Assembly (NCBI GenBank): GCA_028285545.1
Contig: JANQPA010000014.1
Span: forward strand, 1 to 64,000
Reading direction: 5' to 3'
Source of the DNA: Saprospiraceae bacterium
GTDB lineage: Bacteria > Bacteroidota > Bacteroidia > Chitinophagales > Saprospiraceae
Length of the DNA: 64,000 nt
Within the stretch, counting starts at the first letter, position 1; every line of letters begins with the position of its first letter. Below, piece after piece: positions 1-4,527 of this stretch. The notes beneath the pieces were generated by a model. That model was not told the origin of the DNA. It made no database searches and was given only the letters and a program-made list of their open reading frames with translations. The position numbers and the translations under genes were made by a program.

Positions 1-2143
1 GTACTAATTCTGATTTTAATTCTTTTTGAAGAACGGAAATTCCCGTTAAATAAGGCTTTGGTTGTTCCGGATTAGGCTTCAAATCTTTGGGGTCAGCTAT
101 CCAAATAGAATTACGCCCTCCCAGTACAAGTTCACCGCTTGGCAAAAAAGTAAAAGCATTAAATTCAAGGTCTTTTATTCCATATTGATAACTATAAGCT
201 TCAATTTTTATCTTATCGGGTGTGAACTTGTAGATTTGTTTTGGAGTTACCAGCCATACATTTCCCTGAGGATCTGTCCGCATATATAAAATTTGGGCAA
301 TACCAAATAATTTTTTGACATCATAAACGGCTACCAACCCTTTATGAGGTTGGTCTACCAAAGCAAATCCTAGTTTTGCATCAGGACTACTAACCCAAAC
401 CCTTCCATTTAAATCTTCTGAGAAAAACCTGGGATATTTTATAATTTTAGAAGATCCCATATCAGGTAAAAAATTCAAAATAGTATCCTTTTCTGTCAAG
501 TAAAGGCTATATCCTTCTTCGCGTCGAATCCAGATGTTCTTTTTACTATCTTCATATATTCTATTGATCAAACCAACGGTGTAGGGAAGTCCTTCAGGTT
601 CAAACTCACTTTTAAATTGTTTCCATTTATTTGTGGTCGTAGACCATTTGATTAATCCGCTGTTTCTAGTGCCAATCCACAAATTGTCATTGCTATCAAA
701 ATAAGCAATCCTCATTTGATTATAATGGATAGATTCTGGTATTGTAATTTCTTTAAAGGATCGTTCTGTCAGATTGTAAAGACAGAGTTGACTTGCATCA
801 ATTAGGTACCACTCCTCAGCTGATTTGACACCGACTCCATGGGATTGATAATGATTATTTGAATTGAGAAAGGGTTTAGGAATAGGTACTCTTAACCATT
901 TTTTGGTATTTATATCCAAGTGGTAGACGGCATCTACATCTCTTGCAACTACTGCCAAATCTCCAATCTTACTAGGAGATACCAGATAAAAGGCAAAGCC
1001 GGCACCTACTTCATTATAATCTCTAAAAGAATAATTGGTAAACTGTTGAAGGGTGGGGTCAAAAATATTAAGTCCATTGGAGGTTTTACCCCAGATTCTA
1101 TTTTCTTCATCTAGAAAGGTAATTCCATAAAATTGATCCTTTTGCCAATTATTGAATTTGACAGAACTTGTCATTTGGCTTTTAAGGTCATAGCTAAGCA
1201 TTCCCATAGAAGAGGAGATCCAAATTTCTCTTTCATTTTTTCTTTTTATATCAGCGGTGGGAGAAAGTACAATGGTTTTTGCTTCTGCTGAATTGCGATC
1301 ATCCAAAGGCAAAAGGGTGAGGTTTTGATTATAGGGATCAACAATTCTAACTCCTTTTGACCAGGCACCGGAATAAAGCCTTCCTTGATCATCCTGATAT
1401 AAATCCAAAAATACATTTTGGCCTGATTGTACATTAAAATCATCATCAGGAAAACAATACCATTTTAAATCATGACTATATTTGTTGATACGAAGAAGTC
1501 CCGACCTACTTCCTGCCCAAATGATGGAATCATTTTGATTATCCTGCATCATTTCATAAATCCTGTCTGCTCCTCGGGAAGAGTTGAAATATTGAGTTAC
1601 CTCTTCTGGGTTGACCCGGTAACATATGTAAGTATCCTCTTTTGGATTATATCTGATAATTCCCTGATTGGTAGTTCCCATCCAGATATCTCCATCTGCT
1701 GTCCTATAAAAAGAGAAAATGCCGGTATAACCATCAGCAATAATGCTATCCCTCAAAACACAGTCTTCCATTTGATAGTTTGTTAGCTTCCCAGTCTTAA
1801 ATTCATAAATTGACCAACCGGTATGATTGCCAATCCAAAGCCTTGAACTATCGGCCAATAAACTATTCACACGACCATCCTGGAGGCTTTCAGGATCTTT
1901 TACATCTTGTAGAATATTTAAAAAACTGGAACCATCGAAGCGACTCACCCCACTATTGGTGGCTATCCAAATGAAACCATGAGGATCTTTGACTATATCT
2001 CTTACGTGATTACCCGCTAGTCCGTCTTCCATGGTGAGGACGGATGGCTCGTCGATTTTGATCTGTGCAAAGGAATTCCCCTGCCAGAAAAAGAACGAAA
2101 AAATCAGCCATTTGAGGATGCGGGTGTGAATTCTTTTGTTCAA
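1..2143 (-). CDS. Two-component regulator propeller sensor (partial, 3' end outside window)
   Basis: The frame is open for about 714 codons from 2143 to the window edge. It starts with a signal peptide rich in Trp/Phe that ends FAQ, followed by repeated blades of the Reg_prop type such as GFIWIATNSGVSRFDG, DIWMGTTNQGIIRY and NLWIGTRNSGLIKW. These form a periplasmic beta-propeller sensor; in Bacteroidota such propellers normally continue into a Y_Y_Y domain, a membrane helix and a histidine kinase or LytTR/AraC output, which would lie outside the window. The start is probably TTG at 2143 (CTG at 2146 is the only other choice), because a stop codon lies just upstream in frame and there is no ATG before the signal peptide. 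The ligand is unknown. Confidence is high for the sensor family and low for the missing output domain. Confidence 0.85.
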   Translation of the reverse strand, partial: MNKRIHTRILKWLIFSFFFWQGNSFAQIKIDEPSVLTMEDGLAGNHVRDIVKDPHGFIWIATNSGVSRFDGSSFLNILQDVKDPESLQDGRVNSLLADSSRLWIGNHTGWSIYEFKTGKLTNYQMEDCVLRDSIIADGYTGIFSFYRTADGDIWMGTTNQGIIRYNPKEDTYICYRVNPEEVTQYFNSSRGADRIYEMMQDNQNDSIIWAGSRSGLLRINKYSHDLKWYCFPDDDFNVQSGQNVFLDLYQDDQGRLYSGAWSKGVRIVDPYNQNLTLLPLDDRNSAEAKTIVLSPTADIKRKNEREIWISSSMGMLSYDLKSQMTSSVKFNNWQKDQFYGITFLDEENRIWGKTSNGLNIFDPTLQQFTNYSFRDYNEVGAGFAFYLVSPSKIGDLAVVARDVDAVYHLDINTKKWLRVPIPKPFLNSNNHYQSHGVGVKSAEEWYLIDASQLCLYNLTERSFKEITIPESIHYNQMRIAYFDSNDNLWIGTRNSGLIKWSTTTNKWKQFKSEFEPEGLPYTVGLINRIYEDSKKNIWIRREEGYSLYLTEKDTILNFLPDMGSSKIIKYPRFFSEDLNGRVWVSSPDAKLGFALVDQPHKGLVAVYDVKKLFGIAQILYMRTDPQGNVWLVTPKQIYKFTPDKIKIEAYSYQYGIKDLEFNAFTFLPSGELVLGGRNSIWIADPKDLKPNPEQPKPYLTGISVLQKELKSELV

Positions 2144-2396: not shown

Positions 2397-3710
2397 ATGC
2401 ATACCATTACGTATTCAGGAATTAATCGAGAAGTTTGTTTTGAGGGAAGAGACCGGTCTCTGCTGGATATATCAGTGGAGCAAAAAATTCCTCACCTGCA
2501 TGAATGCGGGGGTAATGGGCATTGTACTACCTGCAGAGTTAGAGTAATTGAAGGAAGTAAAAATCTTTCCAGACCTACTAGGAAGGAAAAAATTATGGCT
2601 GATCTAAGAAGATGGGATCCATCAGTTAGACTTGCCTGCCAATGTTATCCGGAGGGGGATGTAGAAATCCAACGTTTGGTATGGACCAGTGGAGAGATCA
2701 ATAAACTACAATTGGAAACAGTGCCGGAAGGGGAAGCGGAGGAAAGAGCCATTGCGATCATGTTTTGTGATATGCGCAACTTTACCAAACTCACCTCCCA
2801 TAATTCTTCTTTTGATATGGCTCATATCCTGAATAGGTTTTATACCGTTTTGGGTGATCCCATATTAATGAATAATGGAGTGATATATCAGTATGTGGGG
2901 GACGAAATTGTTGGAATATTCGGTACTTCAGGAGGAACCAAAGAAAAAAACTGCCTTGATGCAATTAGGGCTGCCATGGGGATGAAATATGCTATTAGCC
3001 GTCTGAATGGCATGGAACTTCAGGATTTTGATACACAAATTAAGGTAGGCATCAGTCTACATTTTGGAAGGGCATACATCGGATATCTGGGGCACCCTAA
3101 ACATCGTCAATTTGCAGTGATAGGAGATCCTGTAAATGTAGCAAGCCGTATTCAGGAACTAACCAAAGAAACCCAATCCGGTATTCTCATTTCTAAATCC
3201 GTCTATAATAGTGCCCCTGAAGGACATTTGAAAATAAATCAGGTTATAGAGCGTGAACTGCGTGGGAAAGATGAACCATTTGAACTTTATGAGCTGGCAG
3301 ATTTTGCCCAACCAGATATACATCTTGAGCTGCAATCTTCTCTGGATTTTATTCTTCAAAATACAGAAAGGTTTAGTGATCGATTTTATAACAAAGTATT
3401 TTCCAGAAAACCAGAAGTAAAAAAACTGTTCCATACTGATATGAAAACCCAGGGTCGCTTGGTGACACACATGATCGCAGGGATCGTGTATTCTCTTAGC
3501 CGCCCCGAACACTTGAAAATGGGCTTGTCTAATCTGGGTAAAAGTCATGAAAAATATGGGGTTCGAAAAGAATACTATCCGATAGTACTAGAATGTCTGA
3601 TGGAGACAATTCGGGAAGAAATGGGTGAAAGCTATACAGAGCGGATAGGAGAGGCCTGGAGAAAAGGCCTGGGTCTGGTAATGGAATTAATGAAAAATTG
3701 GCAGAATTAA
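2397..3710 (+). CDS. Ferredoxin-adenylate/guanylate cyclase-globin fusion protein
   Basis: This 437-residue soluble protein has three domains. Residues 1-95 are a [2Fe-2S] ferredoxin with the cluster motif CGGNGHCTTC (C37, C43, C46) and C81. Residues 115-290 are a class III nucleotide cyclase with metal-binding D125 (FCDMRNF) and D169 (GDEIVG), and the N247/R251 pair in VNVASR. Residues 310-437 are a globin resembling flavohaemoglobin, with probable proximal H384 in SHEKYGVRKEYYPIV and CD1-type F345. The usual adenine-reading Lys and Asp appear to be Q165 and A240, so ATP versus GTP preference cannot be told. The likely role is making cyclic nucleotide in response to redox state and O2, NO or CO; that is inferred from the architecture. 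It probably shares a transcript with the next gene (40 bp gap). There is no signal peptide or membrane helix. Confidence 0.88.
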   Translation: MHTITYSGINREVCFEGRDRSLLDISVEQKIPHLHECGGNGHCTTCRVRVIEGSKNLSRPTRKEKIMADLRRWDPSVRLACQCYPEGDVEIQRLVWTSGEINKLQLETVPEGEAEERAIAIMFCDMRNFTKLTSHNSSFDMAHILNRFYTVLGDPILMNNGVIYQYVGDEIVGIFGTSGGTKEKNCLDAIRAAMGMKYAISRLNGMELQDFDTQIKVGISLHFGRAYIGYLGHPKHRQFAVIGDPVNVASRIQELTKETQSGILISKSVYNSAPEGHLKINQVIERELRGKDEPFELYELADFAQPDIHLELQSSLDFILQNTERFSDRFYNKVFSRKPEVKKLFHTDMKTQGRLVTHMIAGIVYSLSRPEHLKMGLSNLGKSHEKYGVRKEYYPIVLECLMETIREEMGESYTERIGEAWRKGLGLVMELMKNWQN

Positions 3711-3750: not shown

Positions 3751-4527
3751 ATGAAGCGGTATCTTTTTTTGTTGTTTGGTGTTGTTGCCTATCTCATATT
3801 TTTTGGCACCATTCTTTATGCAATCGGTTTTATAGGCAATATTATTGTACCCAAAGCCATGGATGGAATTCCTGAATTACCTTTATGGCAAGCTCTTTTA
3901 ATTGATGCAGGACTACTTGGAATTTTTGCCCTACAACATAGCGGCATGGCAAGACCAGCTTTCAAAAAGTGGTTTACACGAGTAATTCCTGAAGAAATTG
4001 AACGATCCACTTATGTCCTCATCTCGAGCCTCTTGTTAATCTTGTTATTCTGGCAATGGCAGCCCTTAGGAGGAGTGGTATGGACAATCGAAGGCGCAAC
4101 AGCTAAAACCATTATCTGGGTTCTGTTTGCTCTTGGATGGGTAATCCTCTTTGCTAGTACTTTTTTAATCAATCATTTTGATTTATTCGGACTTCGCCAA
4201 GTGTGGCTGGCCTTTCGGAAAAAACCTTACACAGACCTGAAATTTAATGTTCCAATTCTTTATCGTTACGTTCGACACCCTCTATATTTTGGTTTTATCG
4301 TGGCCTTTTGGTCCACTCCAAATATGACCATTACTCATTTGGTATTTGCTCTTGCCTGTACAGGATATATCCTGGTGGGTATTTATCTGGAGGAAAAAGA
4401 TTTAATAGCAAGATTTGGAGATAAATATCTTAGTTATAAAAAGCAAGTCCCCATGCTTATTCCATCACCATTTAAAAGATTTAAAAAGAATAAATCATCT
4501 AATACTGAAACCTTGGAAGTTGCTTAA
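3751..4527 (+). CDS. mddA: MddA-like membrane methyltransferase (NnrU/ICMT superfamily)
   Basis: This is a 258-residue protein with about five to six hydrophobic helices. It resembles methanethiol S-methyltransferase MddA of the NnrU/isoprenylcysteine methyltransferase superfamily, which makes dimethyl sulfide from methanethiol using S-adenosylmethionine. Supporting signs are the ALQHSGMARPAFKKW segment near residues 60-75, the C-terminal RYVRHPLYFGF motif typical of the SAM-binding region, and the terminal YLEEKDLIARFGDKY segment common in this superfamily. The substrate cannot be proven from sequence, since other members methylate different thiols. It follows the ferredoxin-cyclase-globin gene by 40 bp on the same strand, so the two may be co-expressed, perhaps linked by redox or sulfur chemistry (inference). 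The hairpin at 4547-4572 lies just after it. Confidence 0.7.
   Translation: MKRYLFLLFGVVAYLIFFGTILYAIGFIGNIIVPKAMDGIPELPLWQALLIDAGLLGIFALQHSGMARPAFKKWFTRVIPEEIERSTYVLISSLLLILLFWQWQPLGGVVWTIEGATAKTIIWVLFALGWVILFASTFLINHFDLFGLRQVWLAFRKKPYTDLKFNVPILYRYVRHPLYFGFIVAFWSTPNMTITHLVFALACTGYILVGIYLEEKDLIARFGDKYLSYKKQVPMLIPSPFKRFKKNKSSNTETLEVA

Follow-up and report, generated by a model that had tools for sequence, protein, structure and literature searches.

The window analyzed here is the whole 64,000-nucleotide stretch at positions 1 to 64,000 of contig JANQPA010000014.1 from a Saprospiraceae bacterium (assembly GCA_028285545.1). Near its start, a single open reading frame (ORF) with an ATG start codon encodes a protein of 437 aa in which a [2Fe-2S] ferredoxin (Fer2), a class III nucleotide cyclase, and a globin follow one another (Table 1). 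This three-domain order, which a first-pass annotation had read from the sequence, was borne out by Pfam matches to residues 8-86 (Fer2), 117-293 (Guanylate_cyc), and 329-428 (Globin), each above its gathering score (41.5 bits against a cut-off of 21 for PF00111 and 62.2 bits against 21.9 for PF00211). The ORF begins with the Fer2 domain, and no membrane region is present at the N terminus. On the upstream side, a large beta-propeller-type sensor is encoded divergently by a gene that starts 254 bp away and runs off the window, and an mddA-like gene is found 40 bp downstream.

Table 1 Coordinates of the fusion gene, its domains, and the flanking genes within the window
Feature	Position	Strand	Basis
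Large beta-propeller-type sensor gene, divergent	2..2143	-	
Fer2 - class III nucleotide cyclase - globin fusion, 437 aa	2397..3710	+	ORF and translation, Pfam, full-length orthologues
[2Fe-2S] ferredoxin domain, residues 8-86	2418..2654	+	PF00111, E 1.3e-10
Linker/signalling helix from Fer2 to cyclase, residues 94-116	2676..2744	+	Invariant columns; model helix 98-108
Class III nucleotide cyclase catalytic domain, residues 117-302	2745..3302	+	PF00211, E 6.4e-17; PDB matches; invariant residues except 240
Flavohaemoglobin-type (F family) globin, C-terminal, residues 305-437	3309..3707	+	PF00042, E 3.5e-13; 3s1i alignment; model
mddA-like methanethiol S-methyltransferase	3751..4527	+	NCBIfam NF045656, 354 bits against cut-off 270

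Residues and predicted folds of the three domains

The Cys ligands of the Fer2 domain (C37, C43, C46, and C81; spacing C-X5-C-X2-C-X34-C) were conserved without exception in the triple fusions and in every aligned two-domain or six-transmembrane (6TM) relative, and the domain presumably binds a [2Fe-2S] cluster. The linker that follows was the best-conserved segment relative to the sister species (96%), and its residues E100, L104, Q105, E107, and E116 were invariant in the family alignment. A helix was modelled over residues 98-108, where the local pLDDT was only 53-54. The full-length AlphaFold model as a whole was only moderate (pLDDT 73.9, with minima near the Fe-S loop and in part of the globin), as only a shallow alignment of 12 sequences lay behind it. 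Structure prediction, which had been put forward as a way to verify the active site, returned class III cyclases, with CyaC 1wc3 as the best fold match (Foldseek E 1.7e-13) and 2w01 also matched.

By sequence, the best PDB match of the cyclase part was the guanylyl cyclase Cya2 (2w01), and Spirulina CyaC (1wc0) was matched as well. The metal aspartates (D125 and D169) and the Asn/Arg pair (N247 and R251), whose retention had been taken as a sign of activity, were invariant in 17 full-length homologues and in the deeper homologues L059 and L060. Given that the catalytic residues are intact and that 21 cNMP-binding proteins are encoded in the host genome, the product is likely a cyclic mononucleotide, which would be formed by the cyclase as a homodimer.

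The Lys and Asp sites of the base-selecting pair are occupied by Q165 and A240. The first-pass annotation, in which these two positions, the four Cys ligands, the metal and Asn/Arg residues, and the proximal H384 were all correctly placed, had called this pair non-canonical; the residues are as it stated, but they are not distinctive of the fusion. Across the fusion family, A, S, T, or G is found at position 240, and the point is weakened further because Gln with Ala is present in several unrelated cyclases encoded by this genome. Gln at the Lys site is also found in unrelated same-genome cyclases and in CyaC-like proteins of Pseudomonadota. Base-selecting residues were accordingly ruled out as a signature of the fusion, Gln with Ala being present in L002, L003, L004, and L007 of the same genome. 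In the family alignment, the canonical adenylate cyclase pair (Lys with Asp or Thr) was absent, as Q165 was invariant and position 240 varied as above, and the canonical guanylate cyclase pairs (Glu/Cys or Glu/Gly) were absent too, as residue 165 was Gln and not Glu.

The product is most likely cAMP, with Gln165 leaving room for alternatives. That cGMP or another cyclic nucleotide is made instead is a less probable reading but one of some weight, in that the adenine-selecting Lys is always replaced by Gln165 next to a small partner residue, and in that the closest PDB sequence, Cya2, is a guanylyl cyclase with Glu and Gly at its base-selecting sites. The Lys site of Cya2 is nonetheless Glu rather than Gln, and bacterial cyclases with Gln at this site are common; the Gln-bearing Rv0386 forms cAMP as its main product. 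The related CyaC also produces cAMP (PMC10463352).

The C-terminal domain carries Tyr331 (B10), Phe345 (CD1), Gln352 (E7), the proximal His384 (F8), and Tyr394. Its best PDB match by sequence was Hell's Gate globin I (3s1i), with an ungapped alignment, and the same structure was the top Foldseek match when the globin was modelled alone (pLDDT 85.8). The globin fold, on which the first interpretation had been made to depend, was thus predicted independently of the rest of the chain. The fold together with the F8 His, B10 Tyr, and E7 Gln places the domain in the F family, and the closest curated globin model was that of NO-inducible flavohemoprotein. A flavohaemoglobin FAD/NAD reductase domain was absent from the 437-aa ORF by Pfam, the globin being the end of the chain. 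Nor is this an S-family globin-coupled sensor, since the globin is C-terminal and its matches in Pfam, the curated models, and the PDB were of F type. The domain would be expected to bind haem, and F-family globins with a Tyr-B10/Gln-E7/His-F8 pocket bind O2 and NO tightly.

Conservation and descent of the fusion

Homologues with all three domains were recovered across Bacteroidota, and these fell into a single clade, which answers the proposal that such proteins be sought and mapped on a tree. Full-length relatives were found in Saprospiraceae, in Flavobacteriaceae (Maribacter, Robiginitalea, and Flagellimonas), in a Cytophagales MAG, and in a deep Bacteroidota genome. Identity to the fusion was 79% in the sister genome, 41-65% in other Saprospiraceae, 56-58% in Flavobacteriaceae (Allomuricauda/Flagellimonas, Robiginitalea, and Maribacter), 52% in the Cytophagales MAG, and 60% in a genome of the same class (G176). 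The deepest member (L060, from the high-GC genome G397 elsewhere in the phylum) was 37% identical, and its three Pfam domains were confirmed. In the family sample, 14 of 150 genomes carried the fusion, a count that rests on open-frame lengths and extracted proteins and that includes one copy with a Fer2 frameshift and one cut by a contig end. The frameshifted copy (L131:524-1897, genome G907) is disrupted inside Fer2, either by assembly error or by real decay. Profile sampling covered Bacteroidota and Pseudomonadota; no triple fusion was found in 398 Pseudomonadota genomes (E<=1e-30, best four candidates per genome scored), of which 126 had profile matches at this threshold, cyclases without Fer2 included.

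Across the 17 aligned full-length homologues, the four Fe-S Cys, D125, D169, N247, R251, Q165, Y331, F345, Q352, H384, and Y394 were invariant, and L059 and L060 kept the same Fe-S, catalytic, Q165, and haem-pocket residues. Values of dN/dS per domain were 0.011-0.076 in two informative Flavobacteriaceae pairs, indicating purifying selection on all three domains. This selection, together with the retention of the fusion in tens of genomes, means that the gene is neither a chance frame nor an assembly join. A chance ORF or frame artefact was also ruled out by the Pfam matches and orthologues, and an assembly chimera of three genes by the orthologues with the same arrangement in many unrelated genomes.

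The globin changes faster than the cyclase (identity to the sister species 73% for the former and 83% for the latter), which would fit an enzyme regulated by one module only, with the other flanking module serving as a structural remnant or a dimerization domain; many two-domain ferredoxin-cyclases likewise work without a globin. We consider this doubtful, given that the ligand residues of both modules are invariant family-wide, even in L060 with its low overall identity, and that dN/dS for either module stayed at 0.018-0.076 in the two informative Flavobacteriaceae pairs.

In a tree calculated from the cyclase domain alone (191 columns), every Fer2-fused cyclase fell on one side of a single branch (support 100/100), and all 16 triple fusions formed one clade (100/99) inside this ferredoxin-cyclase group. 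The fusion belongs to the group both by having Fer2 directly N-terminal of the cyclase and by the position of its cyclase within the group clade. Beyond what the first-pass annotation held, the protein thus belongs to a family that is conserved in Bacteroidota and lies within a group with a characterised redox-regulated look-alike, CyaC. The group is common in Pseudomonadota, where it takes two forms, one soluble and of ~305 aa and the other longer (550-630 aa) and hydrophobic near its N terminus. Fused globins were separated from free globins and flavohaemoglobins of the same family and of Pseudomonadota in two globin trees, with support of 99/97 in one and 98/94 in the other, in the latter except for row L136, which was disregarded as misaligned, with a long branch and 41% of columns filled. 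Repeated independent fusions were ruled out by the cyclase tree and both globin trees. The simplest history would be one Fer2-cyclase fusion and, later, one acquisition of a C-terminal globin by a Bacteroidota ferredoxin-cyclase, the same stock presumably having also given the membrane quinone-sensing CyaC type.

The order of these events bears on whether the globin could be an enzyme. In flavohaemoglobins, the haem is re-reduced by a flavin reductase domain; here, a nitric-oxide dioxygenase could have its haem re-reduced by the attached [2Fe-2S] cluster, with the cyclase reporting turnover. Such a role is improbable, although it would account for the match to NO-inducible flavohemoprotein, for a Tyr-B10/Gln-E7/His-F8 residue set that is that of NO dioxygenases, for a redox module in the same chain, and for the FAD oxidase-type gene directly downstream in Flavobacteriaceae relatives. 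In this lineage Fer2 predates the globin, and throughout Pseudomonadota it is paired with globin-less cyclases; it was therefore not recruited to serve the globin. The cyclase, moreover, separates the two modules, and neither a reductase domain in the ORF nor a conserved NAD(P)H-reductase neighbour in the loci of relatives was found.

Relation to known cyclases and globins

In S. meliloti CyaC (SMc01818), a 6TM domain holding two haem b is combined with a [2Fe-2S] cluster and a class III cyclase, and the activity of the protein varies with the redox state of the quinones (PMC10463352). The fusion resembles it in that a class III cyclase immediately follows a [2Fe-2S] domain and that the same chain includes a haem module. 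In CyaC, however, the haem module is N-terminal, a membrane domain of six helices that carries two haem b and contacts quinones, whereas the fusion has no membrane domain and its haem module would be a soluble C-terminal globin. An N-terminal six-helix diheme-b membrane domain being absent from the 437-aa ORF, the fusion falls outside the S. meliloti CyaC subtype. Its Fer2 and cyclase parts are homologous to the CyaC-like proteins L067, L085, and L090, whose membrane-Fer2-cyclase layout matches that published for SMc01818, and which are probably of the CyaC type. The Lys site is Gln in the fusion and Lys in most membrane ferredoxin-cyclases. Two-domain soluble ferredoxin-cyclases (~305 aa; L016, L061, L062, and L072-L084), the nearest neighbours of the triple fusions in the cyclase tree, share the Fer2-linker-cyclase order and the Cys ligands but have no globin, and Lys, Asp, Asn, or Glu is found at position 165.

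Among globin proteins, Hell's Gate globin I, Vitreoscilla Hb, and Hmp share the fold and the Tyr-B10/Gln-E7/His-F8 pocket. Unlike F-family globins and flavohaemoglobins, the fused globin has no FAD/NAD reductase, is C-terminal on a cyclase, and forms a separate clade. DgcO/DosC globin-coupled sensors also place a nucleotide-messenger enzyme under the control of a globin. In sensors of this type, the globin is N-terminal and of the S family and the output is GGDEF (diguanylate cyclase), as against the class III cyclase and C-terminal F-type globin of the fusion. Leishmania HemAC has an N-terminal globin and no ferredoxin and, unlike the bacterial fusion, is eukaryotic. It is cited as a globin-coupled O2-sensing soluble adenylate cyclase (PMC6027212), and its globin is likewise joined to a class III cyclase.

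No described ferredoxin-cyclase-globin protein was found in a literature search of open-licence papers, in keeping with the first-pass annotation, to which no characterised protein with all three in this order was known. The fusion is a real and conserved domain combination that had apparently not been described before, best regarded as a variant of the CyaC-type ferredoxin-cyclases in which a globin replaces the membrane haem module. That ferredoxin-cyclases have been paired with haem in two unrelated ways (membrane diheme-b and C-terminal globin) suggests that Fe-S, haem, and cyclase together are a selected design.

Proposed mechanism and genomic context

We propose, at a probability of roughly three in four, that the fusion is a soluble CyaC-like redox cyclase whose haem sensor has been moved to a C-terminal globin and which integrates electron state with O2 or NO. 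The first-pass annotation had suggested an integrator of this kind; it stands as the natural reading of the domains and their intact residues, while we infer the regulation itself and its direction. Regulators of class III cyclases are typically N-terminal, and Fer2 takes this place, from which it would report the state of the electron-carrier pool, perhaps taking electrons from some reductase, and would act via the short signalling helix; redox transmission would be expected by analogy with S. meliloti CyaC. The globin, once it had bound haem and then O2, NO, or CO via its Tyr-B10/Gln-E7 pocket, would act from the opposite end on the homodimeric catalytic core. The resulting cyclic mononucleotide, most likely cAMP, would be read by CRP-type receptors.

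A more elaborate and rather improbable extension is an electronic coupling of cluster and haem, either through the cyclase dimer or across it. Instead of two signals, the protein would then sense one, the flow of electrons between the ferredoxin pool and bound O2/NO, as a redox-gated gas sensor or as a self-reducing NO dioxygenase reporting its turnover, possibly with a Gln165-dependent mixed cAMP/cGMP output. Under the proposed redox and gas integration, the arrangement, as it is kept across many Bacteroidota, would be a real way of bringing gas sensing and redox state together in a single signal. Two different metal cofactors would flank one signalling core in a compact soluble enzyme, present in the culturable marine Maribacter and Robiginitalea, and how Bacteroidota derive cyclic-nucleotide signals from their redox and O2/NO state becomes directly testable. 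Engineered redox- or NO-controlled cyclases are a potential use.

No reductase or target partner was identified from the loci of fusion relatives, because the neighbourhood is not conserved outside Flavobacteriaceae. In all seven Flavobacteriaceae loci, an FAD_binding_4/BBE oxidase-type gene is directly downstream (L030:6375-7766 and equivalents in L031-L036) and a divergent pair of TPR histidine kinase and LuxR-type regulator genes is upstream, with the families verified by Pfam at a single locus, L030. The mddA-like gene follows the fusion gene in the sister genome (L009) only and not in other relatives. The two genes are possibly co-transcribed, and MddA is presumably DMS-forming; a function for the fusion drawn from this neighbour is unsupported beyond the host genus, where the order ends.

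Single-domain globin genes flank an unfused ferredoxin-cyclase on each side at L143:3603-6588 (genome G608, Pseudomonadota). This association is only suggestive because it was seen in 1 of 20 examined neighbourhoods of unfused ferredoxin-cyclases, and since the L143 globins lie outside the group of fused globins in the globin tree, it is independent or due to chance. Within the same family as the host, genome G031 encodes a 562-aa fusion of EAD11, a Ser/Thr protein kinase, and a C-terminal globin by Pfam (L130:1306-2991, minus strand), a further case of an F-type globin at the C terminus of a signalling enzyme, possibly an O2/NO-regulated kinase.
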